Positions 35,091-61,719 of a stretch of 64,000 bases of DNA are shown one piece after another. Under the pieces are notes generated by a model. The model saw nothing but the letters and a program-made list of their open reading frames with translations, did no database searches and was not told where the DNA came from. Each line of letters opens with the position of its first letter. The first letter of the stretch is position 1. The position numbers were made by a program, and so were the translations under genes. The DNA is from an uncultured Lachnospiraceae bacterium (GTDB lineage Bacteria; Bacillota; Clostridia; Lachnospirales; Lachnospiraceae): positions 1 to 64,000 of the forward strand of contig CAMWTP010000023.1 in the NCBI GenBank assembly GCA_947177165.1. Reading direction: 5' to 3'.

Positions 35091-35205
35091 CAGCCTTACT
35101 CCTTCCTCCCCCAATAAATAGGAATCAAAATCTTCCCCATGTGCCTAATTCTGTACTCACGGCAAATTTCATTCAGCGTGAGCACAGTATTCCAAATGTG
35201 CAGTT

Positions 35206-37656: not shown

Positions 37657-37702
37657 CACTTTCTCCTCCTGACATTCTCACAAACGCTGATACAAATCTA
37701 TT

Positions 37703-39106
37703 TTACCACTGCGACTTGCGCTTTTCGAGTTCCTCCCTGATTGCTGGCAGCTTCTCTTCCAGGTCAAATTTGACTGCGCAGACCAGCATCACAGCAAACA
37801 GTAAGAGCGGAATATAGATATTAAATGCATAGATCGCCTGCCTTGTCGCCGTTGTCGCAACAGCCGCTGTCGCGTCATAGTGCGCGATCGCAAGGCACCA
37901 GCCGATCACAGACACGCCCAGACCATTTCCAACCTTGCCGCCAAATCCAACCGCACTTTGGGAGGATGCCACCATCCTGTTCCCATATTTGTATGCATTG
38001 TAGTCAATCGCCATGGCCGTCGTAACGCCCAGCAGACACATCATCGGAATGTTTGCAAACGACCCCACGCACCCTAGAATCGTGTTATACCAGAAATGTG
38101 TCGGATTCAGGAGCCTTAAAGCAGTTGCTGCAGTCCCCATGAAAAAGCATACACGCAGCGTTTTCACAACACCCAGCTTCTTGTTCATGGGACCTACCGC
38201 TGCAAACCCGAGAATCGTCGGTATCATGCCCACTGCCCCGAGAATCGCCACAAGATTGTCATCCCCGTAAATCCACTTGCAGTAATAGGTGCCTGACGAA
38301 TTTGCCAGACCATAGGTGACATTCGACATCAGTCCCATGATAAGCGCCAGAACCCAGTATTTATTTCCAAAAAGTTTTTTGACAGCCTCGCCTAACGAAA
38401 CCGGAGCGTCAAATTCATCCGGCTCGGGAGCAGCTGCCGCCACATCGTCAGCAGTTGCCGTTTCCTTGCTTTTCTTGTAACAGAACAGCAGGCAGAGCAG
38501 GGAAATCAGCGCCAGGACTGCCGCATACTTTATCCATGCACTCTTTGTACCGCCCAGTGCATTGGTAACCGGAATGACTGTCAGAACGATTGCCATTCCC
38601 GGAACATATCCTGCCAGCGCACGGTATACGCCCATCTTGCCGCGCTCCTCGGTACTATTTGTGCGCACTACCATTAGAGAGCCATATGGAATTGCGATCG
38701 CAGTGTAAATGACGGATGTCATCAGCAGGTTTGTGACCAGCATATAGGCAATCTGAAGCGTGGAATTTCCCTGCGGTACGGTAAACAACATCAGCATCAG
38801 TACAGCCGCAGGTACAGACATTTTCAGCAGCCATGGCCGGTAACGTTCCTTTCCCGGCTTGGTGTGATCTATAATGTTTCCCATGATGATGTCTGTAAAT
38901 GCGTCAATAACCTTTGTAATCATGAATACGGTCGCGACCACGGCCGCCGCAAGACCTGCCTTGTCCGTGTAAAAATAAGTTAACTGTCCCACCATACCGT
39001 TGATTGCATTTAATGCAAACTGTCCCATGGCATCTCCAAAATAATCGCTTCCGCGCATGACCTTCTGAATGCCGAACTGGTCTTTTCCCAATGGTTTTCT
39101 TGCCAT
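37703..39106 (-). CDS. GPH (glycoside-pentoside-hexuronide) cation symporter
   Basis: 467 aa, twelve membrane helices. QKVMRGSDYFGDAMGQFALN start, TKVIDAFTDIIMGNIIDHTK (the conserved D-x-x-x-D/GxxxD-type motif of MelB-like carriers) and RYRPWLLK after it. Expected to import the rhamnosylated glycoside with Na+ or H+. ATG 39106 follows AGGAGG by 11 bp. It lies between the first rhamnosidase and the GH3 gene with 30-46 bp gaps, so one operon. Being a symporter rather than an ABC system, it suggests small di- or trisaccharide substrates. Confidence 0.9.
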   Translation of the reverse strand: MARKPLGKDQFGIQKVMRGSDYFGDAMGQFALNAINGMVGQLTYFYTDKAGLAAAVVATVFMITKVIDAFTDIIMGNIIDHTKPGKERYRPWLLKMSVPAAVLMLMLFTVPQGNSTLQIAYMLVTNLLMTSVIYTAIAIPYGSLMVVRTNSTEERGKMGVYRALAGYVPGMAIVLTVIPVTNALGGTKSAWIKYAAVLALISLLCLLFCYKKSKETATADDVAAAAPEPDEFDAPVSLGEAVKKLFGNKYWVLALIMGLMSNVTYGLANSSGTYYCKWIYGDDNLVAILGAVGMIPTILGFAAVGPMNKKLGVVKTLRVCFFMGTAATALRLLNPTHFWYNTILGCVGSFANIPMMCLLGVTTAMAIDYNAYKYGNRMVASSQSAVGFGGKVGNGLGVSVIGWCLAIAHYDATAAVATTATRQAIYAFNIYIPLLLFAVMLVCAVKFDLEEKLPAIREELEKRKSQW

Positions 39107-39136
39107 AATAATCTTTCCCTCCTGTGTGAAATATTT

Positions 39137-41893: not shown

Positions 41894-42150
41894 AAAAACA
41901 TCTCCTCCTTTTTTATGGTCTCAATTTGGTTTGCTTAATTGCCCGATGTTTATATACATATTTTATCCTGTTGGAAAGCATCTGTATTGTAATTGTGTTT
42001 AATATTTTGTAAGTTTGTTCCGTTATGTAATTTTTTAAACATGAAATTCCGTGAATCTTTATTGTAATTATATCTGATTTGTTTTAAAGTTAATTTAAGC
42101 ACAACTTATAGTCCCTGTTTTATCCCAGCATATATGTACAGGAGGTTATT
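41894..42150. promoter_or_regulatory. Divergent control region of the rhamnoside cluster
   Basis: 257 bp, very AT-rich, containing both start regions (AGGAGG for GH78 near 41904-41909, CAGGAGG for AraC near 42138-42144). I see AT-rich possible -10 elements but no confident sigma-A pair and no clear palindrome; AraC-type sites are hard to see by eye. Confidence 0.5.
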
Positions 42151-43347
42151 ATGGATTCCGTTTATTCGTTCTGCCAGACACTTTACAACTGTATCTATCT
42201 GCCAATACACTATTACAAAGACGGACATCTGCAGCTGGTACTGCCAGATACCGGATTTCCTTTCGACCTGGCAGTGCCGCATCTGTCCGAACTGGCTTCC
42301 AGGGAACAGGCTGTCGCCTATCATATCACAAAAGAATTTCATTATATCGGACTTGTGCAGAACAAAGAAACAGGTCAGACCGTTTTGATCGGCCCCGTAA
42401 TCAGTATTCCTCCCTCTCCTGCATCTGTCAGGAACATTATGAAAGAATATTCTATCCCACAGGAACACAGGGAACTGCTGGCAGAACTCTATCAGTTTAT
42501 ACCACAGTACTCCTTCCATCAGTTCTGTCATTTTCTTTCGTTGTTTTATCAGGAATTATTCAATGATAGGATTGATATTGACGCTTATCTGAACATATAC
42601 ACAGACACAGGAAGCACGACTGTGGCTTCTCTGCACTCGGCCAAAATCTATGATGCCAAAGAGATGGAACAGTTTCACAATACATATCATTATGAACAAT
42701 TATATCTGGACTATATCCGAAGTGGAAATGTAGATGGACTGAAAAAGTTTTTCTCCAACGCTTTTTCTATACAAGCCGGGAAGCTTGCGGACAATACCCT
42801 GCGCCAGGAAAAAAATATTTTGATTGTCTCAGTTACACTGGCGACCCGCTGTGCGATAGAGGGTGGACTCGACATGGAATCTGCGTACCAGCTCAGCGAT
42901 ATCTATATCCAGGAAAGCGAAAAACTCCAGAGTGCGGAAGACCTCTATCATCTGCAGTATAATATGCTGCTGGATTTTACACGCCGCGTGGCACAGGCGC
43001 AACTTCCTCACGATACCACCTCAGATATCTACAAATGCATCCAGTATATCAAACAGCACACCAACCAAGCCATCTCCACGTCTGACGTGGCTGCATATGT
43101 CGGAAAAAGCCGCTCATACCTCTCACATTGCTTTAAGAAAGAACTTGGATTTGAGATGCGTGAATTTATCATGCGCTGCAAGCTGGAAGAAGCGAAATCG
43201 CTACTGACCTACTCGGACAAATCCATTAGTGAGATCAGCAGTTATCTCTGCTTTTCCAGCCAGGCTTATTTTCAGAATGTGTTTAAAAAGAAATTTGGCG
43301 TCACGCCAAATGAATACCGACGACGGCCGAGTGTTCCGACATATTGA
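42151..43347 (+). CDS. AraC-family transcriptional regulator
   Basis: 398 aa. A long N-terminal sensor region (about 1-290, no membrane helices) followed by two HTH motifs: ISTSDVAAYVGKSRSYLSHC and ISEISSYLCFSSQAYFQNVF with the closing KKFGVTPNEYRR signature. Genes of this form next to glycosidases act as sugar-responsive activators; rhamnose or a rhamnoside is the natural inducer guess. ATG 42151 follows CAGGAGG by 6 bp. Divergent from the GH78-symporter-GH3-GH78 operon. Confidence 0.88.
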   Translation: MDSVYSFCQTLYNCIYLPIHYYKDGHLQLVLPDTGFPFDLAVPHLSELASREQAVAYHITKEFHYIGLVQNKETGQTVLIGPVISIPPSPASVRNIMKEYSIPQEHRELLAELYQFIPQYSFHQFCHFLSLFYQELFNDRIDIDAYLNIYTDTGSTTVASLHSAKIYDAKEMEQFHNTYHYEQLYLDYIRSGNVDGLKKFFSNAFSIQAGKLADNTLRQEKNILIVSVTLATRCAIEGGLDMESAYQLSDIYIQESEKLQSAEDLYHLQYNMLLDFTRRVAQAQLPHDTTSDIYKCIQYIKQHTNQAISTSDVAAYVGKSRSYLSHCFKKELGFEMREFIMRCKLEEAKSLLTYSDKSISEISSYLCFSSQAYFQNVFKKKFGVTPNEYRRRPSVPTY

Positions 43348-46845: not shown

Positions 46846-49800
46846 TCACACACCAAAATGAATCATATACTTCCCTTCCTGAACCGCCTTCTGGATTAAC
46901 TGCGCAAGCAGTACCAGCTGCTCATCCTCATTGATTCTATGGTCCGCCAACACGATATCCTGAAAAGCGTGCAATGATTCCGGGGGAATCAGGGTGACAC
47001 CATATCTTGCCAGCCCCATCTCCGGACGGCTAAAACGATGAAAATAGGTTTTCATCAGCCTCAAACGTTCCCACCAGTCATCGATATAGCGGTCGTCATC
47101 GATATAGACACAATGATACTGCTCCGGCTCATACACTCCATAATCCTTTGTCTCATCAAAACAATCAATGATTCCAAACTCTGTTTTTATCAATACCGTT
47201 TCCTCCATTACCTGCTCCTTGTCTATCCAATAGGCGATATCTATCCGGCGCATTGACTTTAACTGACTGCCATAAGTTCCCTTTTCCAGATACCACGCAA
47301 GCATATCCTTCAAGCGTTTAAAGTTAGCAGCCCCTCTGCAATTGCGCTTCCAGACAAACACCTCATCTCCAAATATACGTTCTTCATCAAGGGCGTGGGC
47401 ACCATAATATTGGGGACGGCTCACCACCTCCACCAGGCAGAACCCGTTCGTCTGCTGCCGAAAATCCAGCTGAATCCGCTGCACTTCTGTCTCATGCGCC
47501 AAAAGCAGGTTATCAAGCCATGATACCAGTTTCATCAAAATTCCCGTCTCTGTAAACACCGACAAAAAATCAGCGCCTGTTTTTTCCAGACTGTGTACCG
47601 ACTCACACTGCCCACGCTCGCCATAACAATATTCCAGGTGTCCGTCAATCTGCGAAATACTTAAATATCCGCTAAAGCACTCTACTTCCGTCACATTCGC
47701 CAAATCAAACATCTCTGGCAGAAGCGCTGCCAAACTATCTCCGCGGCGCATACGGAATGATTGATAATAATAATATGTCCCGCTTTCTCCAATCGCAAAC
47801 GGCTTCGGATCACAGACTTCTTTGGGCGTATAGGAATCTCCCCATCCCAGAAAACCGGCAATGCGATGCTTCTCCTTTACCTTTTTATTCAACTCCTGAC
47901 ATGAAAATCCATACTGTTTGGCAATCTCCGCATTGCGCTGTGTCAAATCGGCCCCAAAGGGATTCATCGCACAGTATAATACGCGTTCGCCCGTCCGCTC
48001 CGCTCCATAACGCAGCACACAGTAAGTTTCCGTTAAAAGGCTGCTGTTTGTTTCATGCCGCTTTAACGCCTCCATAATCTGTTTTGCCTTTTCTTTTGAT
48101 TCCATTCCGTCAAGCGAAACGGTGCCAAGAGAAACGGGTAATGGCTGTTTTAATCCTTGCAAAAACGCCGTAACCGATTGTTTCGTCTGCTCCCCCCACG
48201 CGCTGTCTACTATTGTCATTTCGTGGAATTTCTGCCATGCAAAATCCCTTAACGCATAAAATACCACCTTTTCCTTCCTTACCACCGCGCGAATGCAAAG
48301 TTGTTCCTGCTCCATATAATAGACTTCTCTCGTCCTTTTGCTCTCCTCGTTTCTTCTTCTGCAACAGTCCACCAGCAAGCGGGCAATATCTGGAATCGTC
48401 TGTGGATAGAGCGGCGTTTTTTGCAGCCATTTTTCAACCATAGAGATTGCTTTGCCACACTCATTCTGCTCTATCGAAGTGATTGCTAACAAGAAGAAAA
48501 ACAGTTCTGCTTTTTCCAATGACGCAGAAAGCCTCACAAAATCATCAAATGTATACTCCATATTGTGTACCAGCTGACCGTCTATCCAATAGAGAACATA
48601 GTGCAGATGAAACGCTGCCTTAAGCGTCCGCTGATCTGGAAGACTCCATTCCATGCTCACTGGATTGCTGATTTCCTTCGTCCTCTCATCAAATCCGGTA
48701 AAACATTTCTGCCATGTAAGAGAGGGATAATAGGTATATTCCATATAAGCGGGGAGATATTCCCGATTATCCCGGTTATATTTGTGCGGTCGGATTCCAT
48801 CTTCTTCTGAGGCATCGCGCAGACCAAATCCCCAGGTCAGATAATACTGCCAGAAATCAAGATTATTATCACCAATATCCTCCACTCCAGTTTTATTCAA
48901 TGCAATGGGCAGCCCTTCGATCTCTCTTATTCTGCGGTTAAATCCCAATGATGGTATCAGCCCCTCCAGCATAAGCTGCCGCGCCCTGTCCTCCGCTCTC
49001 CATTGTTCTTCCTGGGAATAGTGGGCAATCAGCCTTTCCGAAAGTGATACTGGCATGACATGCCTGAAATGAAACTGGGAATATATTTTGTCAAACAATT
49101 CCAAATCATACTGAAGCTCCTGCCACATAGAGCTGGCAAACAAAGTCTGTATCCTGTTTTTAATTTCTAACGATTCCTCGTAGAGACCCTTGTCATAATT
49201 GGAATGATTATCCGAAACAATTCTCGACAGTTCCCGAAAGCAGTCCGCAATTCTCTGGGCTCTGGCACCTTCTCCGTACAACGTGCTCTCAATATCGGGG
49301 TACTGCCTGAGAATTTCCTGTTTTAACGGCGCATACAATTTCCGATTCATTGAATGCTCCACATTCTTCAGGTTATATTCCTGATACATGCACTCCAAAA
49401 CACATTTTGGCACCGTTTCATTCTGAATCCAGAAAGTAAACAATACAATCAGACATTCTCCCCGGTATTCCTCGTACAAATATCCTTCGTTGGTATTCTG
49501 TTCATATAGACATCTCGCTTGTCCATTCAACAGTATTTTGGACCACATTCCCTTATTTCCCGGGCTAATCTTATTTTCCGCATTCATATGCCTTAATTGC
49601 AGATAGTCCTGAAATGCCCGCATCCGCACCACACATTCGGGCGTATTCAAAATGCGTGCTGGCGAATTCCCCATCTTATTCATCTCAATGTCCCATCTCT
49701 TTGCAACGATTTCCCTTGTCGGAAAAGTGTTCGACACATCTGCGGCGCTCTGTCCCTGATCCAGTCTCAAAGCATACGCTATAGCTAACTCCGTGAGAAA

Positions 49801-50223
49801 TCCTGCTGGCAGACTTACCTCATCCGGAGCAGTATTATGAATAACACGATTCCTTCTGAACTGCTGAAAAAAATGCTTGATGGTATTTATCAAACAGCCC
49901 AGTATCTTTGTTATGACTGCACGATTTTTGCTGTTATCCTCTCTATCCTCCTGTTTCTGCCAATAAGATAAATATTGTATCATGTCATTGACAAATCCCT
50001 CGGAATACTGTTCCCGCAAAAAGTCCTCCGACAAAAAGAACTTCTTCCACACATCCGCGTTTTTAAAATCTTCTTTACTGTCAAAAATGGCTGTCAACTG
50101 CCTCATAGCCTTGGATTTTGCACCCTCGTCTAAATGCTTCTCCTGCCGCAAATCTACTGCACCGCCTTTCTGTATGTCTTTGATTACAGTATACACGACT
50201 GGCGCCGTTTGCACAATGAACAA
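46846..50223 (-). CDS. Very large protein of unknown function (about 1,085-1,125 aa)
   Basis: No signal peptide, membrane helix or ATPase motif. The protein is rich in Trp, Tyr and Glu, for example ECMYQEYNLKNVEHSMNRKL, KQEILRQYPDIESTLYGEGA, YYLTWGFGLRDA and EQYHCVYIDDDRYIDDWWER. I recall similar long Lachnospiraceae proteins with an N-terminal J domain; here there is no HPD motif, so it would be a J-less or N-terminally shortened relative. The start is uncertain: TTG 50223 has no Shine-Dalgarno, TTG at about 50151 follows AAAGGCGG, and ATG near 50106 follows GAGGGTG. It lies 90 bp after rarA on the same strand, in sequence beside the SMC-type operon. Function cannot be inferred. Confidence 0.6.
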   Translation of the reverse strand: MFIVQTAPVVYTVIKDIQKGGAVDLRQEKHLDEGAKSKAMRQLTAIFDSKEDFKNADVWKKFFLSEDFLREQYSEGFVNDMIQYLSYWQKQEDREDNSKNRAVITKILGCLINTIKHFFQQFRRNRVIHNTAPDEVSLPAGFLTELAIAYALRLDQGQSAADVSNTFPTREIVAKRWDIEMNKMGNSPARILNTPECVVRMRAFQDYLQLRHMNAENKISPGNKGMWSKILLNGQARCLYEQNTNEGYLYEEYRGECLIVLFTFWIQNETVPKCVLECMYQEYNLKNVEHSMNRKLYAPLKQEILRQYPDIESTLYGEGARAQRIADCFRELSRIVSDNHSNYDKGLYEESLEIKNRIQTLFASSMWQELQYDLELFDKIYSQFHFRHVMPVSLSERLIAHYSQEEQWRAEDRARQLMLEGLIPSLGFNRRIREIEGLPIALNKTGVEDIGDNNLDFWQYYLTWGFGLRDASEEDGIRPHKYNRDNREYLPAYMEYTYYPSLTWQKCFTGFDERTKEISNPVSMEWSLPDQRTLKAAFHLHYVLYWIDGQLVHNMEYTFDDFVRLSASLEKAELFFFLLAITSIEQNECGKAISMVEKWLQKTPLYPQTIPDIARLLVDCCRRRNEESKRTREVYYMEQEQLCIRAVVRKEKVVFYALRDFAWQKFHEMTIVDSAWGEQTKQSVTAFLQGLKQPLPVSLGTVSLDGMESKEKAKQIMEALKRHETNSSLLTETYCVLRYGAERTGERVLYCAMNPFGADLTQRNAEIAKQYGFSCQELNKKVKEKHRIAGFLGWGDSYTPKEVCDPKPFAIGESGTYYYYQSFRMRRGDSLAALLPEMFDLANVTEVECFSGYLSISQIDGHLEYCYGERGQCESVHSLEKTGADFLSVFTETGILMKLVSWLDNLLLAHETEVQRIQLDFRQQTNGFCLVEVVSRPQYYGAHALDEERIFGDEVFVWKRNCRGAANFKRLKDMLAWYLEKGTYGSQLKSMRRIDIAYWIDKEQVMEETVLIKTEFGIIDCFDETKDYGVYEPEQYHCVYIDDDRYIDDWWERLRLMKTYFHRFSRPEMGLARYGVTLIPPESLHAFQDIVLADHRINEDEQLVLLAQLIQKAVQEGKYMIHFGV

Positions 50224-50312: not shown

Positions 50313-51629
50313 TCAATGCCGTCTTCTCCACTCCCTGACCTGTTCCAGCCTCTCTTTCATCGCTGCTTCCTTTCCCTGACTGGTCGGCCGATAGTACTCC
50401 CTGTCTGCCAGCGAATCCGGCAGACACTGCATATTGGTCAGCTTCTCCTCCGTGTCGTGGGCATACTGATAGCCTTTTCCGTAATCCAGCTCCCCCATCA
50501 GATCTGTGACGGCGTTGCGAATCACAAGTGGAACGGGCTCCGCCAGCTGCTCTATGGCATCAATCTTTGCGTGCTCATATGCCATGTAAAGCGCGTTGGA
50601 CTTTGGCGCAAGCGACATGTAGACTACCGCCTGTGTCAGATGCACCGTACATTCCGGCATTCCGATGAAATGGCACGCCTGATACGCCGCCACTGCGATC
50701 TGCAGCGCCTGCGGGTCGGCAAGTCCGATATCCTCACTCGCAAAACGCGTCACCCTCCGCGCGACATACAGTGGGTCCTCCCCCGCTTCCAGCATGCGCG
50801 CAAGCCAGTACACCGCCGCATCCGGGTCAGAATTGCGCATGGACTTGTGCAGCGCGGAAATCAGATTGTAGTGCTCTTCACCCTTCTTGTCATACAGTAA
50901 CGATTTTTTGGAAGTGCACTGTTCTAATGTCTCCTCCGTGACTGTGACGCCGCCGTTTTCATCAATCTCACCGTTCAGGACCACCATCTCCAGCGTCGAC
51001 AGCGCATTTCGCGCATCTCCGTTGGCAAAATTCGCTATCGCCTGAATCATGTCGTCCGGGATGTTGACCTGCTGCATCCCAAACCCTCTGTTGTCTTTCA
51101 GCGCGCGATGCAGCAGCCCCGTCAGCTCTTCCGCGGTGAGCGCGTGCAGCACAAACACCTTGCACCTCGACAATAGCGCGCTGTTAATCTCAAACGACGG
51201 ATTCTCTGTCGTAGCGCCAATTAAGATAATACTTCCCTTCTCCACAAACGGCAGAAATGCATCCTGCTGCGCCTTGTTAAACCGGTGAATCTCGTCCACA
51301 AAGACGATCGTCCGCTCCCCGAAATGGCGGTTGTGCTCCGCCTGTTCCATGACAGTGCGGATTTCCTTGATACCGCTTGTCACCGCTGAGAAATCGATAA
51401 ATGCAGACTTCGTCCTGCCCGCGATAATCCGCGCAAGCGTCGTCTTTCCCACCCCGGGCGGTCCCCAGAAGATCATGGACGACACCTGGTCACTCTCAAT
51501 CAGGCGGCGCAGCACCTTTCCCCTTCCCAGCAAATGTGTCTGCCCCGCGTATTCGTCAAGACTCTGCGGCCGCAGTCTCGCCGCCAGCGGCTGCGGCATC
51601 TCCCTGTCAAAAAGTGTCATCTGTTCCAT
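50313..51629 (-). CDS. rarA: Replication-associated recombination protein A (MgsA/RarA AAA+ ATPase)
   Basis: 438 aa. AAA+ core with Walker A WGPPGVGKTT (about 55-64), Walker B TIVFVDEIHRF, sensor 1 GATTENPSFE and arginine-finger region LLSRC, then the tetramerisation domain (RNSDPDAAVYWLARMLEAGE and SLAPKSNALYMAYEHA). Acts at stalled replication forks on single-stranded DNA ends. ATG 51629 has AGGGGG 9 bp upstream and begins MEQMTLFD, the usual start. It lies 41 bp after jetC on the same strand, so it may be read from the same transcript. Confidence 0.95.
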   Translation of the reverse strand: MEQMTLFDREMPQPLAARLRPQSLDEYAGQTHLLGRGKVLRRLIESDQVSSMIFWGPPGVGKTTLARIIAGRTKSAFIDFSAVTSGIKEIRTVMEQAEHNRHFGERTIVFVDEIHRFNKAQQDAFLPFVEKGSIILIGATTENPSFEINSALLSRCKVFVLHALTAEELTGLLHRALKDNRGFGMQQVNIPDDMIQAIANFANGDARNALSTLEMVVLNGEIDENGGVTVTEETLEQCTSKKSLLYDKKGEEHYNLISALHKSMRNSDPDAAVYWLARMLEAGEDPLYVARRVTRFASEDIGLADPQALQIAVAAYQACHFIGMPECTVHLTQAVVYMSLAPKSNALYMAYEHAKIDAIEQLAEPVPLVIRNAVTDLMGELDYGKGYQYAHDTEEKLTNMQCLPDSLADREYYRPTSQGKEAAMKERLEQVREWRRRH

Positions 51630-51670
51630 ATTGATACCCCCTGCGTGCCCTTGCGCGCACACCAATCAAA

Positions 51671-54600
51671 TCACTCGCCATCTTCCCCCTCGAGCATACT
51701 GAGATAATTTCCTTTGTCAATGTGCATCATCGATATCCGGTTCTGGAATCTGCGGAAACCGTACACGCAGTCAACATTTTGAATCAATGACTGCAGGCGC
51801 TCGTCGGGCACGCAGACAATCAGCTGCAGGTCCATCTTCCGCGCGTATTTCAGACAGACTGCACTGCGCTCCTGGTCCATCTTGGAAAATGCCTCATCCA
51901 GGAGCACCAGTTTAATCCTGGAATCCCTGTTGTTCTGCGCATTGTACAGCATGGCAAAGCCTGCAAGCAGCGCCACATACTTCGGGTTCTGTCCCTCGCC
52001 GCCGGAGTCGCGCCCCGCCATCTCGTCCACATAATTCTCGCGTATCACCGTACCATTCTCGTCCGTCACCTGCTCATACATCGTAAAGGACAGATAATTT
52101 CTGTAATCCGCAAACTCCTCCATATCCCGCATACGCTGTTCCCTGACACGGCCGTCCTCCTCGCGGATTGGCATAAACTTGTCCGTCAGGAGCTTTATTT
52201 TCTGCTCGTATTTCTGATAAAATGAGTCCTCTCCAAGACTTAGCTGCCCCTCGATCACATCTGCGCCGACATTCTTGCTGTCGAGCTCCGGCGCTGTCAG
52301 CATCTCATAAAACTGCCCTTTCTCATCGTGTGCCGGCTCAATCTTTATCTGATAGGTGCTGTCTGCAAAGTTTGTCTTCCGCAGCAGGCGGTTAATGTCA
52401 TATGTGTGCCGCTTTGCAGCTTTGATGTCGCCGTGAATCGTGGCAATCACATTCTCGCGCAGACTCTTGTATATGAGACTGCACTGCCGCTCAAACGCAC
52501 TCTCATACTTTGGCTCATAGTCATTCTGATAGTCCTGCAGCAGACGGTCATACACGGTATTGTCCTTTTCCGCGCCGTTAAAGCCAACCGACGGGTACTC
52601 CCTGTTAAAACGGTTTCTGGCATTCTGGAGCGTCTCCGTCTCCTCCTGCTCCTTTTCCTCCAGCGTGTTAATCTGCGCGGCAAGTCTGTTGCGGATCGTC
52701 TGACCAGAACGCGTCTTTAACTGCTCTGTAATCTCTGCCTCAATCTGGGTGTCCGCTTTGTACCCGATACGCTTCTCGTCCAAATCTGCCCGAAGCCGGT
52801 TGACTTCGCCTTCCTTCTGGCTCATCATTCTGGTGCGCTCATTGGTGAGGTTCTGGTTCTGGTTCTGCTGTATTTTTTTCTCCTTCTTTTTCTCCTCAAG
52901 CCTGTCCTTTCGCTCCTGAAGCTCCCTGTACTCCCCTTCTTTGAGCCTTGCAATATCCTGCCGGAGCTTTATGATATGTCCCGTAACCTTGTCCAGCTCT
53001 TTTCCTGCCCGCGACAATCGCTCGAAATACGCCGCGTCATTGTCCAGACGTTCAAAACCTGCTGCCGTCTTCAGACTCTCAATCCGCCGCCTGCGTTCTG
53101 CGCACTCCGTCTCCTGTCTAAGCAGATTCTCCTGATATTCTGCAAGTTTTGTCTTTGAAACCTTTGTCCCGATGCATGCGTATTTCTCATAATCATTTTT
53201 GCGGAGATGGCGGAAGATAAAGTTGCTGTACGAATAGCAGTCCGGCGTGACGCCGTCGCGGACACGCTCCAATTCCTCCACTGTATGACATTTCTGAATT
53301 CGCCCCAGATACCGTTTCAGACATGCATCAATGTATGGAATCTCCGTCTGCACCGCCTCGTAGAGGGAGTTGTCCTCGACAGAACCGTTCTGTTTTGCGA
53401 TGGCATCTGTATTGATCAGGTCGACCTCCTCATACTTTTTCATCCCGCGAAAAAGGGCTGCCGCATCATGGGCGTATTTGGGTTCGGTCACAAGCGACAG
53501 CTTCAGTCTGCCCATTCTGCCCTCGACGGCGTCCTTCCACTCCGCGTCCTCTACATTAAACAAATCTGCAAAAATATTCACTTTAATCAAACGCCCGTAA
53601 CGGTCTGTCAGTCTGCGCTCCAACGCCGCCCGCGCTTCTCTCAGCACTGCCGGATAAGGTTTTCTGTCGTTTTGCAGATCATCTACCAGACGGCTCAGTT
53701 CCTTGATTTCTTTTTCAAGCTCCCTGCGCTGCTCATTGTACTCCTCGAGCACCTCATCAATATTCTCGCGCGCATCCTGTATGCTTTTTTTGAGACTTTC
53801 ACACAGTTCTGCATCAACCTTTCCCCGGCAGAAATCTTCGATCTTGTTGAGCATGGGATTGCTGACATAATCCGTAATGACCGTATCTTCCTCCCATTTT
53901 CTCAGCCCCTGCGCAACTTTCCGCCACTGTTCACTGTCCGCCGCATACATTTTCTGAAGCGTCACAAGTTCTTCGAGCTGGCTCTCCTTCACCCCCAAAT
54001 CACTCGACTGCAGATCCGCAGATACCTGAATCAGTTCCTTCTCGATTTCCTCCATCTCCGCATCAAGTTTTGTCTTCTCCATCTCCAGGCGCACTAATTC
54101 CTCCGCGGCAGTTTGGATTCCCTCCTCGTCTGCGGCAATCTTATCCTGAAGCTCCATGACTTCCGTGCACCGTATCATTGCACGCGAACGAATGATGTCG
54201 GTGCTGACTGCTGACTTTCGTTTTCCAGCCTCCTGCACTTCTCCCAAAAGTTCGATTCTATGGCGCATATCCTTGATTTTTTCCTGGATATCGCGGTAGG
54301 AACCCAGCTGCTCGCTGATTTTGCCGATGATATCCCCGTCGTTTTTCGGAAACATGTAATCCTTGATAAACTGACCTGTGCCGTCTGTCATTTTAAGTGC
54401 AATGGCGCTCTTTTCCATCACGGTAAAACGCTTGCCATCTATATAACCCAACAGGGAATCATAGAGCGCGTTCGTGTACGCTTCCTTTGACGGATAGATG
54501 CGGTTGATGTCCCTTCCCCTGTTTTCTGCACTGTTTGCGCGCTCCTCCACAAGTTTTCGGATTTCCTGATTGGTGTACGGACAGCCCTCCTGGGTAAGAT

Positions 54601-55027
54601 ACCCCGAATCCGGCATCTTTCCTGCATGGCTGAAATACATCATTTTCTTGATTTCAGAATCGTTTTTCCGGACCTCGAAAGCCAGCCCCACACAGCTGCT
54701 CAGATGACTTCCCGTGTCTATAATTTCAAGCACAATGTTTGAACAAAAATCACTCCCGCCGCGGTTGGCTGTGCCGTCTTTCTGCTCTCCCTTAAGATAA
54801 CTCAGCACACTCCGCTTATTCCTGGCATCGTCCGCCGCCTTATTCAGGAAGCTGGACGAAATACTTCCGTACAAAATAACCTGTATTGCGTCCATCACTG
54901 TCGACTTTCCGGACCCGCTCATCCCGCTGAACAGGTTGACATACTCGTGGAATGTCAGCACCTGATGCGTGATTCCGCCCCAGTTATTGAGACACATTCT
55001 CGTAAATATTTTCTTCGCTTTCTTCAC
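51671..55027 (-). CDS. jetC: Wadjet JetC-like SMC/MukB-type ATPase
   Basis: 1,118 aa. N-terminal ATPase half: LNNWGGITHQVLTFHEYVNL then Walker A GMSGSGKST (35-43). Long coiled-coil arms around about 260-470 and 600-800 (Glu/Lys/Arg-rich), separated by a hinge-like part (about 480-590). C-terminal half has a GGEGQ signature (SGGEGQNPKYVALLAGF) and Walker B LVLLDEAFSKMD with ERLQSLI after it. This is the motor of JetABC complexes that extrude DNA loops and recognise circular plasmids. Start: GTG 55027 with GAGGAG 8 bp upstream, inside the end of jetB; ATG 54997 is the alternative. Confidence 0.9.
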   Translation of the reverse strand: MKKAKKIFTRMCLNNWGGITHQVLTFHEYVNLFSGMSGSGKSTVMDAIQVILYGSISSSFLNKAADDARNKRSVLSYLKGEQKDGTANRGGSDFCSNIVLEIIDTGSHLSSCVGLAFEVRKNDSEIKKMMYFSHAGKMPDSGYLTQEGCPYTNQEIRKLVEERANSAENRGRDINRIYPSKEAYTNALYDSLLGYIDGKRFTVMEKSAIALKMTDGTGQFIKDYMFPKNDGDIIGKISEQLGSYRDIQEKIKDMRHRIELLGEVQEAGKRKSAVSTDIIRSRAMIRCTEVMELQDKIAADEEGIQTAAEELVRLEMEKTKLDAEMEEIEKELIQVSADLQSSDLGVKESQLEELVTLQKMYAADSEQWRKVAQGLRKWEEDTVITDYVSNPMLNKIEDFCRGKVDAELCESLKKSIQDARENIDEVLEEYNEQRRELEKEIKELSRLVDDLQNDRKPYPAVLREARAALERRLTDRYGRLIKVNIFADLFNVEDAEWKDAVEGRMGRLKLSLVTEPKYAHDAAALFRGMKKYEEVDLINTDAIAKQNGSVEDNSLYEAVQTEIPYIDACLKRYLGRIQKCHTVEELERVRDGVTPDCYSYSNFIFRHLRKNDYEKYACIGTKVSKTKLAEYQENLLRQETECAERRRRIESLKTAAGFERLDNDAAYFERLSRAGKELDKVTGHIIKLRQDIARLKEGEYRELQERKDRLEEKKKEKKIQQNQNQNLTNERTRMMSQKEGEVNRLRADLDEKRIGYKADTQIEAEITEQLKTRSGQTIRNRLAAQINTLEEKEQEETETLQNARNRFNREYPSVGFNGAEKDNTVYDRLLQDYQNDYEPKYESAFERQCSLIYKSLRENVIATIHGDIKAAKRHTYDINRLLRKTNFADSTYQIKIEPAHDEKGQFYEMLTAPELDSKNVGADVIEGQLSLGEDSFYQKYEQKIKLLTDKFMPIREEDGRVREQRMRDMEEFADYRNYLSFTMYEQVTDENGTVIRENYVDEMAGRDSGGEGQNPKYVALLAGFAMLYNAQNNRDSRIKLVLLDEAFSKMDQERSAVCLKYARKMDLQLIVCVPDERLQSLIQNVDCVYGFRRFQNRISMMHIDKGNYLSMLEGEDGE

Positions 55028-55646
55028 TTGTAAACTCCTCTGACTCCTCCGCATCTTCCACTGCATCCGCATAATTTTTCACCAGCTCATTGATATCCGC
55101 CGATGCGCAGAAAATGTTGATCGTGCTGTATATGTAAATCGGTGAATCATCCTCGAGACTGCCGATTGCTCCCGGAAGTTCTATGATCTGGTGCGTTTTC
55201 AGCATCGCCAGCGCGTCCTGCCATTCCTGTACGGTCAGCTTTCGCGCAAGCAGGTTGGTGCTGCGGCCGACTTCCCTGATTTCCTCCAGACTCGTAACGG
55301 TCGCATTCAGCCCTTCCCCCATAATCTTATCCCTGTAGATCACTTTCAGAATGAGCAGGATGCGCGTGCCGGTCAGCGTCAGTCTGTCCGTCGGCATCCC
55401 CTCGCCCCTGATGCGGAAAATGTGCTCATGCGGGTCATGTACCAGTTCACAGTCAAGCACCGACAGGTAATCCGCGATAAATTCCCTGTGGTTTGCGCAG
55501 ATGCGGTATCGCGGATTGTCCCGCTGCACCAGCGTCACCGGATCACATTTTACCTGCAAAATGCAGGTCTGCCGGAACAGATCCTGTATCGTCTTCTTGA
55601 TTCCTGCCGCCTCACCAGGCGACAGCTCCTCTATGTATCTAATCAT
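54984..55646 (-). CDS. jetB: Wadjet JetB-like (DUF4194, MukE/kite-type) protein
   Basis: 220 aa. Compact winged-helix protein: IKKTIQDLFRQTCILQVKCD, NPRYRICANHREFIADYLSV, RLTLTGTRILLILKVIYRDK and NLLARKLTVQEWQDALAMLK give the DUF4194 pattern of MukE/JetB subunits. Acidic C-terminal tail (SEESEENIYENV). ATG 55646 overlaps the jetA stop by 8 bp and has GGAGG just upstream; its own end overlaps jetC. It bridges the kleisin-like JetA and the SMC heads. Confidence 0.88.
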   Translation of the reverse strand: MIRYIEELSPGEAAGIKKTIQDLFRQTCILQVKCDPVTLVQRDNPRYRICANHREFIADYLSVLDCELVHDPHEHIFRIRGEGMPTDRLTLTGTRILLILKVIYRDKIMGEGLNATVTSLEEIREVGRSTNLLARKLTVQEWQDALAMLKTHQIIELPGAIGSLEDDSPIYIYSTINIFCASADINELVKNYADAVEDAEESEEFTSEESEENIYENVSQ

Positions 55647-57072
55647 CCAATCCTCCGTTTTTTAAATCGATGCTCAGCTCCGTAAACGCAAAACCGTTCT
55701 CACTGTGAAGTTCCTCACCGAGTTTCACATAATCCTGCCCTTCCTGCTTTCCCACGATATCCTGCCACAAAAAGATCATTTTCTCCAAATCCGCAACGGA
55801 TTGCACCGTGTCGGCGGTGGTCTGGAACACGCCGTCTCTCACATTCTTATCGCAGAATGCCTTCAGCTGCTTTTTCGTGTACAGCGGCTTTGGCACAAAA
55901 TCCGTGATTGCGGTATTGTCTGTCTCCTCCTCCCTCTCAATTGCCAAGGGCTCGAACCGGTTTTCCGAACTGTCGCGCCGTCTGTACATACTGTTGTCGT
56001 CAAACATTTTAAACGGCGCTGTCAGACCGATTTTAGCGCGCACGCCGTCCAGTATGGCATCTGGGTCGCTGCTCCTGTCAATCATCTGAATCAGCCGGAG
56101 CACACTGTCCTCCTTTGCCGATCCCTCCTGAAAAATGTACTGGATTCTGGCGAGTGCGCGCTTTGCAAAGATCGCCTTCTGCTCCACAAGCTTGTTATAT
56201 TTGCGTTCAATTAAGTCAAATTCCCGCTCGATTTTGTACACAAGCTCATCGGCCTCCTCATTGTACGTTACTGCCTTTTGGGCACGCAGATATGCAGCAG
56301 TATTCTTTTCACACTGGTTCATGGCGTTCCTCAGCTCTGGTTTTTGTCTGTCATTCTCGTTCAAAATCTGGCTGATCAGCTCCTTCACGGATTCCTTATA
56401 GCGGTAAAAGCTGTCTGTGGTTGTGAGAATGGCATACTTCTCGCTGTCGCTGTTGTTGATCTCATTCACCAGCACCTGCTGTATTTCGATGAAATTTTTA
56501 CTTCTGGAAAGCTTGTCAAAATAGGTGCGCATACCGTTCTGCATACTGGACAGCAGCAGTTCGAGATTTTTGGACGTGTGCAGCGCACTTTTTAATATTT
56601 CGTTGTTTTTTTCCTGATCCGACTGGTAGGTGTACAGCGCACTGTAAACAGAGAGAATGCTCTCCCGCTCCCTGCTGTCATCCTCGCTCTGCAGTTTTTT
56701 GAAAAGCTCCACGTAGAGCTGGCTGTACTCTGGAAATGACAGAATGTAAGTATTCAGCCGTTCATCATAATCGCTCCGCATCCAGCCCCAGCCAATCAGC
56801 GTATTCAGAATCGCGGAGGGCGTTCCCGCCGTCTCAAAAACTGCATTTCCCGCCGGACTCTGTGTCTCCTCGACATCTTCCATCCACTCGATCTGCATCC
56901 CGCTGATCGTCTCGCCGATAATCGACTGCCCTTCCTCGATTGTCAGTCCGGACGCTGTGTAAACCGCGTTGCTTTCATCGTAGACCGCGGTCAGAAACAT
57001 CATGTAGGCATCCATGTTTCTGGTGCGGAATAACTTGTAAAAATCTTTGGGTATTCTCTTTTTTAATAGCAT
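55639..57072 (-). CDS. jetA: Wadjet JetA-like kleisin (PF18982/DUF5716 type)
   Basis: 477 aa. Opens with MLLKKRIPKDFYKLFRTRNM and has TSKNLELLLSSMQNGMRTYF and a long helical middle (about 130-320), as in JetA proteins of the type carrying the DUF5716/JetA domain. N- and C-terminal parts (about 60-110 and 385-470) would bind SMC neck and cap. Expected role: MukF-like kleisin that closes the JetC ring. ATG 57072 lies 11 bp after the lipoprotein stop, with AAGG upstream. The three jet genes overlap, so they are one translation unit. Confidence 0.85.
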   Translation of the reverse strand: MLLKKRIPKDFYKLFRTRNMDAYMMFLTAVYDESNAVYTASGLTIEEGQSIIGETISGMQIEWMEDVEETQSPAGNAVFETAGTPSAILNTLIGWGWMRSDYDERLNTYILSFPEYSQLYVELFKKLQSEDDSRERESILSVYSALYTYQSDQEKNNEILKSALHTSKNLELLLSSMQNGMRTYFDKLSRSKNFIEIQQVLVNEINNSDSEKYAILTTTDSFYRYKESVKELISQILNENDRQKPELRNAMNQCEKNTAAYLRAQKAVTYNEEADELVYKIEREFDLIERKYNKLVEQKAIFAKRALARIQYIFQEGSAKEDSVLRLIQMIDRSSDPDAILDGVRAKIGLTAPFKMFDDNSMYRRRDSSENRFEPLAIEREEETDNTAITDFVPKPLYTKKQLKAFCDKNVRDGVFQTTADTVQSVADLEKMIFLWQDIVGKQEGQDYVKLGEELHSENGFAFTELSIDLKNGGLDD

Positions 57073-57923: not shown

Positions 57924-59471
57924 CTATAACCCAACTGTGTATCTGCCGTTCTGCTGCCATGTAATCGTCAAAGGCTGCAAATCGTACTCCGTGATCTCAT
58001 ATCCCTCCGGCGTCAGCGACACGCTAAACTCCGCCATGCCGCCCTTCGTGCAGCTCATTTCCGGCTGGGCGCTGATGTAATTTCCAAGGGAATAGTAGAC
58101 GAGCATCTGGTGTCCGCTGTCATCTGTGAGCATCTCATAAGGCTGCAGCACATGCGGATGCGTGCCGACCACAACATCCACACCACTCTCCAGAAACACC
58201 TGCGTCCACTTCCGCTGAAATTCGTCCGGCTCCTTTGAATACTCCGTTCCCCAATGCGCAAACACAATCACAAAATCCGCCTCGGACTGCGCCTGTGCAA
58301 TATCCTTTTGCACCTTTCCTTCGTCTGAAAACAGATGTACCATATTCGGATTCTCCTCTGGAACACGGATTCCGTTCGTGCCATAGGTGTAGTTCAATAA
58401 CGCAAAGCTGACACCGTTTCTCCGAATCACTGCATATGGTTTGTCCTCCTTTTCATCCGCCGTCTGTATTCCGAGGCATGTTACCTGATTTTCATCAAAA
58501 AAGCGCTTTGTAAAAGTGACTCCCTCCGCCCCTCTGTCAAGCGCGTGGTTGGTCGCACAGGTGACTGCATCAAAGCCTGCATCCACAATCGCCTGCCCCA
58601 CGTTCACCGGCGTGCCAAACCGGGGATAATCGCTCACCATCGCGGGGTCATCTGTCAGCGGTGTCTCCTGATTAATGACGGCGACATCGCTGTCCGAAAT
58701 GATATCCTGCATCTTTTCAAACAGGAAACCAAAGGACTCGTCATTTTGCAGGCCATACTTGTAAATCGGTTCGTGCGCCAGAATATCTCCAAACGCTGTG
58801 AAAGTAATCTTTGTCTCTTCCTTCTTAAACCCCCACGAATCCCACATCCAGCTGGTCATCTGATCGTCGGGAGCGCGAAACCACAGACGCATGTACGGCG
58901 CTTCCTTTCCATTGGAAGTGATATCCGCAACATCCTGTCCCATGTATGAGGACATCCATTTGGGACTGATTTGGTCAGCATTATATTCATATACAAACAG
59001 ATGCTGTGACCATGTATCCTCGTCCTTTTCCACCCAGAATGGCTTGTGCGCTCCATACCGTCCCTGCTTCCAGCACAGAAGGACCAGCTCGTCTGTTTTG
59101 TCGTTGTCGATATCACACGACAGTACTTTTTGCACTTTAACTTCTGCCGGAGATGTCCAGATGACAGTTGTGTCATTTCTGACATTCGTGTCACTTTCGA
59201 CACTTGTGTCATTTTTGCCATTCATGGCACTTTCGACACTTGTGTCATTTCTGACAGTTGTGTCGCTTTTGTCGTTCATATCGTATTTCACGCTGACTGT
59301 CTTGTTGTTTAACTCAATCTCATACTTTCCTGTCGAATCACAAAAGACACTGTCCTCCCATATCACCCAGAACGGTATTCCAGTACTCAAATACACCCCC
59401 ACGCCTGACAGGAGAGTAGCGGCGCTGACCGCTGCCAGCGCCCCAATAATAATCTTCTTACTCCCATTCAT
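57924..59471 (-). CDS. CapA-family (PGA_cap) metallophosphoesterase-like protein
   Basis: 515 aa. One N-terminal membrane anchor (about 5-27), an unusual low-complexity repeat (about 70-107), a VCBS-like segment CDIDNDKTDELVLLCWKQGR, then the CapA domain from about 210: FTAFGDILAHEP, INQETPL, CATNHALDRG, FAHWGTEY and GTHPHVLQP, all metal- or substrate-site motifs of PGA_cap proteins. In Bacilli CapA helps export or anchor poly-gamma-glutamate; here no capB/C neighbours are present. ATG 59471 lies within the last codons of the DUF3160 gene (14-bp overlap). Confidence 0.85.
   Translation of the reverse strand: MNGSKKIIIGALAAVSAATLLSGVGVYLSTGIPFWVIWEDSVFCDSTGKYEIELNNKTVSVKYDMNDKSDTTVRNDTSVESAMNGKNDTSVESDTNVRNDTTVIWTSPAEVKVQKVLSCDIDNDKTDELVLLCWKQGRYGAHKPFWVEKDEDTWSQHLFVYEYNADQISPKWMSSYMGQDVADITSNGKEAPYMRLWFRAPDDQMTSWMWDSWGFKKEETKITFTAFGDILAHEPIYKYGLQNDESFGFLFEKMQDIISDSDVAVINQETPLTDDPAMVSDYPRFGTPVNVGQAIVDAGFDAVTCATNHALDRGAEGVTFTKRFFDENQVTCLGIQTADEKEDKPYAVIRRNGVSFALLNYTYGTNGIRVPEENPNMVHLFSDEGKVQKDIAQAQSEADFVIVFAHWGTEYSKEPDEFQRKWTQVFLESGVDVVVGTHPHVLQPYEMLTDDSGHQMLVYYSLGNYISAQPEMSCTKGGMAEFSVSLTPEGYEITEYDLQPLTITWQQNGRYTVGL
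59163..59276 (-). repeat. 18-bp (6-aa) tandem repeats in the CapA-like gene
   Basis: Six hexapeptide units of the type NDTSVE / SDTNVR / NDTTVR in a row, one diverged (SAMNGK). A 36-bp higher-order unit is visible (NDTSVE occurs twice exactly). Located between membrane anchor and enzyme domain, so it acts as a spacer and may vary in length. Confidence 0.85.
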
Positions 59472-61719
59472 ACTGGTATCGGTAACTCTCCGTCCAGTCT
59501 GGTCTCTGAACCGGTTTGTCATAATTGTAGTTTCCATTCTCGTCCGCCTGGATTCCCATCATCTGACGCCACTTTGTGTCGGTCAGTCTGTCGCCCGACG
59601 GCCATGGGAACTGGTAAAACGAATAGACACTTCCCCTTGCGACCTTGATTATCCCGTCAACGCTGACCACCACATAAATCTCAGAAGGATTTCCAGTCGC
59701 AACCTCAAGCGCCAACCCATTGTCAGGATCAGTCGCGATATCTGCGACGATCGCCGCCGGATATTCAGGCGTGTCGAAATACTCGTCGCCAAACATATCC
59801 TTTGCCGCCTCATACCAGAAATGCTCAATGTTCCCGCCATAACTTCTGATAAATTCATATTCCCCGTCTGTCAGGACTTCGTCCTGAAGCTCCTTGTTGG
59901 AAATCACAAGCAGCTGCTCCGCAATCTCACACAGACGTGATAGGTTCTCTTCATCCGACGCGGCAAGCATACCATACTTTTTGAGTCCCTCCGCTGTCTG
60001 GCTGGAAAGCGCTGCAAAACGCTCATACACAAGCGGCTCCGGCTCGACGTATCCCCTGTCGTCAGGCTCCTGATCCAGGCCGCCGCCCATCTCTGCGATC
60101 ACCTGCTTTGCGTACAGTATCGTGTCATGCTTTAACTCCGCATAGCTTCCGGCAAAACACTCGAGATTCTTCTTGGTCCACTCCTCGTTCTGCATGAACA
60201 CGGGATACCCTTCGCCTTTCACCTCAAGCAACGGGCGTAGCGTGTTGAGCCAGCCTGCATAGAGACTTGCAGACCACAGCATCGGATTGTCCTGCGCCAG
60301 CCCTTCCCTGAGCTTTGACATATTTTCCATATATCCTTCATAGTCTGCCGCTCCCTTTTCCTCAAGGATTGCAAGTGCCATATCACTGCCGAGCGCTGCC
60401 GGCACATCGAGTGTGTCTGGAAGCATCCGCTTCTCTCCCGCGCTGTTTCTCTGTACATTCTGATAAATCAGCCGCTGCATCACCGCCGCATCTATCGTAA
60501 AGCGCTGTCCCATAAACCGGAACCCGGGAATCACATTCTCCTCGTCCTCCCCGATCGGTATCGAGTTAATCTGCGGCGCGGGGAGATTTGCTGTCGCATC
60601 GTGAAACTGCAAAAACGCTTCTGCATTTCCCGCCAAATCACTGACTGCAAAATCATCGCCGTATGCCTTTTTCATGATCGGTGCATACTCGCACACGCCA
60701 AGATCATCACTCGCACCTGCAAAGAAGGAAGTCACCGCATAGACCGATTCCCACAGACGATAGGCCTCCGCGTCGTCCGTGAGTGCTTTTGTGATCAGAA
60801 GCGCGCTTCTGTCCATATCCTCCGCTTCCTGCGTGAAATGAATCCGCCCATACCACATCATCGCCCTGAAATAACGCTCCAGCTGCTCGTCACCCTCGTA
60901 ATATCCGCGCGGAATATACTGCGAATAATCCTCGTGTTCGGTGGTGATCTGCGATGCCGCAATGCCCTCCGCGCTGCTGATATGATCAAGCTCATACGCC
61001 ACGATCTCCGCCACGTCTCCGTTCACCGTGGCACTGTCATCCAGCAGTTTCAGGCCAACTGTAAAAAATGCCACATTCCGCTTTGCCGCTTCCTCCCACT
61101 CGCTGCCCTTTAACTGCTCATACTGGGTAGTGCTGTCGTCGAGCATTCGTCTGCCCAGTGCGGCCACACTATCCGACAGATAATTTTTCTCGATGTTTTT
61201 GAGCAGGTACGCAAAATATAAATGATATGTGTGCATCAGCGAATCGACTGTCACAAAACTCGGAATCATTTCATATCTGTTGATCTCATAAATTTCAAAA
61301 AACTCCGCCCCGGCGCTGCCGCACACCACAAAGCCGTTCTTTGCCAGCTTATCCGCCATCTCCTGATTGTTCTGCAATACATAAAACTGCCACAGGTTTT
61401 CGATATTGCCAAGGTCTGCGTCCACTGTATAGGGCGCCACGTCAGGCGTCACACTGACAGAATCGCGCTGCACTGTCGTCTGCAGCAGCAGCGGACGCGC
61501 ACCTGCATACAAATTGTTCTGCTGTCCTTTCTGCCCATTCTCCCCTTCCATCTCCGATAACATGATATCTTCATACTGTACTGTCTCGCCGGGATTTGTC
61601 TCCTTTTCTGCCGGTTTTGGCGATGCGCAGCCGCCGAGCATGCTCACCGCCACAGTCAGCGCCGCTGCCTTCCTGAACCTGCATTTCATATTTGTCTTCT
61701 TTTTCACAATTAACAACAC
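59458..61719 (-). CDS. DUF3160 lipoprotein
   Basis: 753 aa. Signal peptide with lipobox: AALTVAVSMLGGC, then an acidic linker and the DUF3160 domain (about 110-750): FEIYEINRYEMIPSFVTVDS, MHTYHLYFAYLLKNIE, MMWYGRIHFTQEAED, GFRFMGQRFTIDAAV. Function unknown; extracellular or membrane-tethered. Start: GTG 61719 (GGAGG 3 bp upstream, tight), GTG 61707 or ATG 61689 are alternatives; the Lys-rich KKKTNMKCRFRK stretch fits a signal n-region either way. Overlaps the CapA-like gene by 14 bp, so they form an operon. Confidence 0.87.
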   Translation of the reverse strand: MLLIVKKKTNMKCRFRKAAALTVAVSMLGGCASPKPAEKETNPGETVQYEDIMLSEMEGENGQKGQQNNLYAGARPLLLQTTVQRDSVSVTPDVAPYTVDADLGNIENLWQFYVLQNNQEMADKLAKNGFVVCGSAGAEFFEIYEINRYEMIPSFVTVDSLMHTYHLYFAYLLKNIEKNYLSDSVAALGRRMLDDSTTQYEQLKGSEWEEAAKRNVAFFTVGLKLLDDSATVNGDVAEIVAYELDHISSAEGIAASQITTEHEDYSQYIPRGYYEGDEQLERYFRAMMWYGRIHFTQEAEDMDRSALLITKALTDDAEAYRLWESVYAVTSFFAGASDDLGVCEYAPIMKKAYGDDFAVSDLAGNAEAFLQFHDATANLPAPQINSIPIGEDEENVIPGFRFMGQRFTIDAAVMQRLIYQNVQRNSAGEKRMLPDTLDVPAALGSDMALAILEEKGAADYEGYMENMSKLREGLAQDNPMLWSASLYAGWLNTLRPLLEVKGEGYPVFMQNEEWTKKNLECFAGSYAELKHDTILYAKQVIAEMGGGLDQEPDDRGYVEPEPLVYERFAALSSQTAEGLKKYGMLAASDEENLSRLCEIAEQLLVISNKELQDEVLTDGEYEFIRSYGGNIEHFWYEAAKDMFGDEYFDTPEYPAAIVADIATDPDNGLALEVATGNPSEIYVVVSVDGIIKVARGSVYSFYQFPWPSGDRLTDTKWRQMMGIQADENGNYNYDKPVQRPDWTESYRYQYEWE

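Follow-up and report, generated by a model that had tools for sequence, protein, structure and literature searches.

Wadjet systems are described as a dimeric sensor, JetABC, which is thought to extrude DNA loops, and a cutter, JetD (PMC10586767). Among the described relatives, MksBEF of Pseudomonas aeruginosa is an operon of an SMC protein, a kleisin and a KITE subunit without a nuclease, whilst MksBEFG of Corynebacterium glutamicum is a Wadjet type I complex that stands beside Smc-ScpAB, has the nuclease MksG and acts on plasmids (PMC10123090). A review speculates that MukBEF and MksBEF arose from Wadjet, the latter through loss of JetD (PMC10586767), and in the papers that we covered, preprints not included, this sentence is the sole statement on JetD loss. 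A survey of Bacillota counted jetD orthologues and lists nine strains that have small plasmids and lack at least one jet gene; the passages considered here contain nothing on selection or repeated loss (PMC12287153). Here we describe a jetABC operon without jetD in a stretch of 64,000 nucleotides (the window) of contig CAMWTP010000023.1, from the draft genome of an uncultured Lachnospiraceae bacterium (GCA_947177165.1). With a probability that we put at roughly 0.55, we read this locus as a type I Wadjet core that would descend from a complete jetABCD operon, would have been stripped of jetD when the DNA between jetC and rarA was cleanly deleted, and would be kept for a job that needs no nuclease. 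That jetD is repeatedly missing from one syntenic site in one genus, and that the remaining genes are under purifying selection, seems to be a new observation.

A type I core without its nuclease

A preliminary description of the window, made from its letters and open reading frames (ORFs), had proposed an overlapping jetA, jetB and jetC set with an intact ATPase, and the ORF coordinates, Pfam and PADLOC searches and an alignment all agreed: jetA overlaps jetB, and jetB overlaps jetC (Table 1). JetA matched PF18982 with 226 bits (cut-off 26.2) and PADLOC JetA1 (PDLC00450) with 702 bits, and JetB matched DUF4194 (PF13835) with 43.2 bits (cut-off 32.7) and JetB1 (PDLC00471) with 358 bits. For JetC, whose family membership had been left to profile searches, we found Pfam matches to SbcC_Walker_B (71 bits) and AAA_29 (48 bits) and a match of 1420 bits to the type I profile JetC1 (PDLC00505). 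JetC carries an intact Walker A motif (GMSGSGKST), signature (SGGEGQ) and Walker B motif (LVLLDEAFSKMD), and in an alignment of 13 JetC rows these motifs were invariant except for the M of Walker A. The jetABC genes of the window are a genuine, intact type I Wadjet core.

In contrast to Wadjet type I, the window has no JetD, the plasmid-cutting Toprim nuclease. As described before, no jetD lies at the locus: the jetC stop at 51671 is separated by 41 bp from the likely ATG of rarA at 51629. The preliminary description had allowed for a JetD elsewhere and had called for a search of the whole genome. In the assembly (247 contigs, 95.54% complete, 6.96% contamination) there was no match to JetD_C (PF09983) at E≤0.001 and none to DUF3322 (PF11795) at E≤10, so that a JetD elsewhere does not apply to this genome as assembled. 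It does apply to a few other lineages. The identical PF09983 search recovered the jetD genes of two congeners (G253 and G275; G numbers denote genomes and L numbers loci) and is therefore able to detect such JetDs. Around the window locus (L133), tblastn at E≤0.01 found no trace of JetD, and the genome had no further match to the window's JetC at E≤0.001. A JetD that is present but too diverged to be seen was ruled out for the loci examined: neither a profile built from 16 JetDs nor tblastn with all JetDs at E≤0.01 detected a trace in JetD-less loci, the sole weak profile match being a piece of a broken JetD (L170). Because JetD is absent from both the operon and the assembled genome, we call the locus a JetD-less derivative, not a Wadjet system.

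Presence of jetD and selection on jetABC

A jetA gene occurs in 15 of the 38 genomes of the genus, that of the window counted. Ten of these 15 have, as the window does, a PGA_cap gene upstream of jetA, which looks like a fixed chromosomal site and not a travelling island. In three of the 15, jetD adjoins jetC: in G253 (locus L121) and G275 (L136) it sits between jetC and rarA, and in the more distant G262 it is next to jetC with no rarA there. JetC of G253, where jetABCD is complete, is 92% identical to that of the window; for G275, whose jet genes are split over two contigs and whose jetC is cut by a contig end, the visible part is 82% identical. The downstream side of jetC is visible and without jetD in ten of the 15 genomes. 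In eight of them, including the window's own (G000, G277, G268, G273, G265, G284, G255 and G256), rarA follows directly, and in two (G264 and G250) the next gene is not rarA; in G276 and G272 the contig ends inside jetC. A genome-wide PF09983 search gave no match in nine of the 12 genus genomes, the window's included, that have jetABC and no adjacent jetD. The matches in the other three were a JetD beside a second JetC (26% identical) in G276, a type III Wadjet identified by PADLOC in G264, and an operon of the same layout in G265. The type III system of G264 (L265, 1-7500) comprises JetD3, JetA3, JetB3 and a JetC3 that is truncated where the sequence ends, and stands alongside a JetD-less type I core.

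The JetDs of G253 and G275 are sister sequences in the JetD tree (Shimodaira-Hasegawa-like approximate likelihood-ratio test, SH-aLRT, 100), and are 65% identical where the JetCs are 82% identical. Other pairs with JetC identities of 77-83% have JetD identities of 60-69%, except the L163-L172 pair. L163, with jetD just downstream of jetC, has a JetD only 52-56% identical to those of relatives with JetCs 83-88% identical; here JetD has been replaced, the locus being ordinary in other respects, and because this JetD falls off the relation between JetC and JetD, it indicates that a swapped JetD can be detected. In a tree of JetA, JetB and JetC, from which G276 with its broken jetC was omitted, G275 branches first, then G265, then G268/G273, and then G253 beside G277/G000. 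Since the two JetDs are sisters and have diverged as expected under vertical descent, these seven genomes probably record three or more losses of jetD, provided that G253 and G275 inherited it from their common ancestor. To judge from these comparisons, the absence of jetD in the window is most likely a local loss, and its repeated absence at this site most likely arose by repeated loss.

The gene may instead have been gained at the base of the seven-genome group and lost afterwards. A single loss followed by regain in G253 through recombination is conceivable, but the jetC-rarA junctions oppose it, because they differ between G000/G277 (the 41-bp spacer), G268/G273 (an overlap) and G265 (another overlap), although later small insertions and deletions could also cause such differences. 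The window and G277 share their junction, and the 700 bp downstream of jetC are 92% identical (L120 versus L133). Independent insertion into G253 and G275 is unlikely given sister JetDs at the same site that obey the JetC/JetD relation.

For the wider family, we took the best 80 of 113 confirmed matches of a GTDB scan, which gave 78 loci, added the genus loci and the nearest loci of the family, and removed duplicates, which left 79 rows. The tree contained 77 rows, three having been dropped (G276 with a broken jetC, a fragment from G272, and L146 without jetA and jetB) and the window's row added; six rows near contig ends were set aside, leaving 71 scored for JetD. JetD was present (adjacent, displaced or, in L170, broken) in 36 and absent from 35, and its state changed at least 16 times on the tree over these 71 loci, a count of changes and not of losses. 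Many separate Lachnospiraceae branches lack JetD, so the same change has probably been repeated. Genome-wide PF09983 searches (E≤0.001) for the 35 JetD-absent rows returned nothing for 19, weak matches only (19 to 35 bits) for 12, and a strong JetD beside a second JetC for four (G009, G210, G291 and G302). The surroundings of the weak match were viewed in four of the 12 (G264, G265, G286 and G296) and had the type III Wadjet layout in G264, G265 and G296, PADLOC confirmation having been run for G264 alone. At four loci (L122, L164, L174 and L185) little sequence precedes jetA, so that the absence of JetD there rests on the genome-wide PF09983 searches, which gave one weak match of 19 bits in the genome of L164 and none for the others. 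Among 35 further family loci (L061-L095), JetD was found by profile in 14 and not in 21, three of which (L074, L081 and L089) have just 0.7-1.2 kb of contig past jetC.

The position of jetD also varies. It precedes jetA, in the order jetD-jetA-jetB-jetC, in L149, L151, L155, L156, L191 and L204, from Roseburia, Agathobacter and others. Intact type I JetDs lie about 9 kb away in G304 (L202), about 12 kb away in G306 (L205) and on another contig in G295 (L179); in G191 (L063) a single contig carries jetABC at 75 kb and JetD at 537 kb, and an intact JetD lies 3 kb from jetC in L181 and one about 7 kb off in L072. The JetDs of G191 (L261) and G304 (L259) are 88% identical and their JetCs just 73%, as if JetD had moved alone. 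In L170, jetD is in two pieces (ORFs of 87 and 239 amino acids, aa) just downstream of a jetC of full length, and may be in the course of being lost.

We estimated the ratio of nonsynonymous to synonymous divergence (dN/dS) by the method of Nei and Gojobori in JetD-less sister pairs that share their downstream flank (L131 with a 125-bp insertion). For JetC it was 0.077 at a synonymous divergence (dS) of 0.41 in G277/G000, 0.049 at 0.12 in G268/G273, 0.047 at 0.51 in L127/L131, 0.055 at 1.06 in L127/L128, 0.095 at 1.11 in L177/L185 and 0.037 at 0.23 in L148/L207; L128/L131 agreed (0.057). The corresponding values were 0.037-0.070 in seven JetD-bearing pairs and 0.053-0.081 in mixed pairs with JetD on one side. 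L177/L212, without a common flank, gave 0.063 and L168/L201, whose flank is common only with an offset, 0.073, whilst L127/L130 was saturated for JetA and JetC. The pair L179/L205 (0.141) was not used as JetD-less evidence, because both loci have a displaced JetD. The only PF09983 match in the genomes of the JetD-less pairs was a weak one (31.5 bits) in that of L148. For JetB, dN/dS was not higher without JetD. We also distributed half of the observed jetC differences randomly: for the youngest of six pairs 10.6% of such trials preserved an open frame, and for each of the other five 0 to 1% did. Between the window and its nearest sister, G276, synonymous and nonsynonymous differences numbered 41 and 15 in jetC, 10 and 4 in jetA, and 3 and 0 in jetB, the in-frame stop of G276 being set aside. 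Because dN/dS of JetC is low up to a dS of about 1.1, the loss of jetD was not followed by decay of jetABC; by these sequence comparisons, jetABC is under purifying selection where JetD is missing. The preliminary description had counted an adjacent jetD in close relatives, or its recent local deletion, against its own proposal: G253 and G275 do have that gene, but no decay followed its loss.

RarA and the other neighbours

The features of the locus are collected in Table 1. In the genus there are two rarA paralogues, and the one adjoining jetC in the window is the jet-linked paralogue; its dN/dS is 0.025-0.063 in the JetD-less pairs that have it. It also follows where jetD is present (G253 and G275). 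Ten congeners that have no jetA match carry it too (G251, G252, G254, G257, G258, G267, G270, G274, G279 and G285), with other neighbours in the eight of them examined (all but G257 and G274). In G250 and G272 it lies apart from jetABC, and its downstream gene there is common to G256, where jetABC is upstream. The order jetABC-rarA, whose conservation had been raised as a question, holds in the eight genus genomes and was not seen at other family loci except L145 (10372-11697), where rarA directly follows jetC and no JetD is found. The L145 gene belongs to the other paralogue, sharing 81% identity with the second rarA in the genome of the window and 47% with the jet-linked one, and gives a second, independent association that favours a role for RarA. 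L204 has this other paralogue too (76%), three genes downstream of jetC. We take the link to be one of chromosomal position, although the two separate neighbourhoods count the other way. The suggested partnership of the complex with RarA is thereby weakened: as a functional partner RarA is not supported, since the jet-linked gene occurs without jetA and also after jetD, and we treat it as a neighbour and at most a possible partner.

Table 1. Features of the jetABC locus and its flanks in the window
Feature	Position	Strand	Remarks
jetA, type I Wadjet kleisin, DUF5716/PF18982	55639..57072	minus	477 aa; Pfam and PADLOC
jetB, KITE/MukE-like subunit, DUF4194	54984..55646	minus	220 aa; Pfam and PADLOC
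jetC, SMC-like ATPase	51671..55072	minus	1133 aa as the longest ORF; the real start is possibly more internal
jetC-rarA spacer, 41 bp	51630..51670	minus	site where G253 and G275 have jetD
rarA, MgsA/WRNIP1-type AAA+ ATPase, jet-linked paralogue	50313..51629	minus	MgsA_C 228 bits
Lipoprotein-like ORF, 246 aa	57084..57824	minus	ends 11 bp before jetA; lipoprotein by eye
PGA_cap-family gene	57924..59537	minus	Pfam; upstream of jetA

The gene before jetA had been called a lipoprotein gene. The ORF is there, with relatives in G253, G276 and G277, and its assignment is less firm: the NCBIfam lipoprotein match is below threshold (16.3 bits, cut-off 70) and a Pfam search gave no match. Downstream of rarA, an ORF of 1125 aa (46846-50223, minus strand) has relatives in G276, G277, G268 and G273 and no match in Pfam, NCBIfam or PADLOC at E≤0.1. 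Farther away, positions 32322-43347 hold a sugar-degradation cluster with two alpha-L-rhamnosidases, a family 3 glycosidase, an MFS sugar transporter and an AraC-type regulator.

A proposed nuclease-free motor and rival readings

Between the two options that the preliminary description had left, a JetD elsewhere or a complex that works without cleavage, the second is the better reading, given the purifying selection on jetABC. We propose that a complete jetABCD operon was the ancestor and that jetD was cleanly deleted between jetC and rarA. JetABC would still form a dimeric motor that extrudes DNA loops and cuts nothing, and would be kept because reeling DNA is useful. The likeliest job would be nucleoid organisation or segregation beside Smc-ScpAB, as reported for Pseudomonas MksBEF, and the next likeliest would be to keep small DNA circles compact or silent but uncut; the window's genome has ScpA (Smc and ScpB were not searched for). 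By analogy, the locus most likely works like a nuclease-free condensin resembling MksBEF. It differs from MksBEF in that nuclease-bearing sisters still exist and that it is known from its genes alone, and it does not reach the cut-offs of the MksE (PF21980, 13.6 bits against 27) and MukB (PF04310, 20.2 against 23) families. More tentatively, at somewhat less than even odds, JetABC of gut Lachnospiraceae may have had a second, nuclease-independent job already in JetD-bearing ancestors, the motor being repeatedly turned into a housekeeping condensin; if so, jetD could be lost repeatedly and the motor retained.

Several observations weigh against a retained, nuclease-independent function or against its derivation by loss. 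In C. glutamicum, MksB, with the nuclease present, had no effect on chromosome organisation (PMC10123090), so that a role in the chromosome should not be taken for granted. In certain other lineages JetD has changed place and is not lost. At deeper branches, the trees of JetD and of JetABC conflict (L149, L151 and L204, for example, join Faecalicatena-type JetDs only in the JetD tree), so JetD has been exchanged at times and the changes of state need not all be losses. Most of the genomes compared are metagenome-assembled. In G276, the closest sister, an in-frame stop lies about two-thirds along jetC, either real or a fault of assembly, and jetC ORFs are split in L197 and in L202, which has a displaced JetD; the JetC ORF is likewise short (1009 aa) at L210, a locus that does bear JetD. 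The dN/dS of JetA is 0.063-0.19 without JetD versus 0.030-0.099 with it. Column by column, 39 JetD-less rows (including the four displaced-JetD loci L063, L179, L202 and L205) were more varied than 30 JetD-bearing rows, with mean differences in conservation of 0.09 for JetA, 0.05 for JetB and 0.07 for JetC. Together with the higher dN/dS of JetA, this allows for some relaxation.

The same alignments bear on how JetD would dock. By eye, the columns of JetA, JetB and JetC contained no JetD-facing patch with a localised loss of constraint, and the N-terminal LFRQTCIL of JetB was equally conserved with and without JetD. In other Wadjets an IFDR motif at the N-terminus of JetB contacts JetD (PMC10586767); no solved JetB structure on which to map this contact matched the JetB profile at E≤1. 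If LFRQTCIL is the JetD contact, its erosion would be expected without JetD, yet it is unchanged, a further point against our reading. If it is the IFDR site, either this stretch has another use or JetD docks from elsewhere.

An alternative that we consider unlikely, if likelier than the two that follow, is that JetABC still defends without cleaving, by loading small circles, extruding them fully and keeping them compacted and silent, uncopied and untranscribed. Current models, in which JetABC senses shape and size and JetD cuts (PMC10586767), are in its favour, and so is the fact that conservation of the motor subunits, JetB N-terminus included, has not dropped at any one place without JetD. 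Against it, B. subtilis required all four subunits to suppress plasmids (PMC10586767).

We judge it distinctly improbable that a nuclease in trans serves JetABC, whether a JetD on a missing contig, the JetD of another Wadjet or an unrelated nuclease. The displaced type I JetDs of G191, G304, G306, G295, L181 and L072 make JetD action in trans plausible in some lineages, and the conserved JetB N-terminus would fit it. None is visible in the window's genome, however, and where PF09983 matched in the genus genomes without adjacent jetD, in three of 12, the matches belong to other systems. We saw no candidate nuclease recur beside JetD-less jetC in the genus, where rarA is next in eight of ten; unrelated nucleases elsewhere were not searched for.

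That jetABC is slowly decaying, jetD having gone first, likewise has little probability in our judgement: the G276 stop, the split jetC ORFs, the broken jetD of L170 and the slightly less constrained JetA are what it would predict, but JetC dN/dS of 0.04-0.10 up to a dS of 1.1, and frames that randomly placed differences would rarely leave open, speak in part against it.

For annotation, these results are a warning that finding jetABC genes is not the same as finding a working anti-plasmid defence. A motor in good repair without its cutter suggests a second job. Natural sisters with and without jetD at one site in one genus make the proposed passage from Wadjet to MksBEF directly testable and, if the second job existed as we tentatively suggest, this genus would have been caught in the very transition, from defending the cell to serving its chromosome, by which MksBEF is proposed to have originated.

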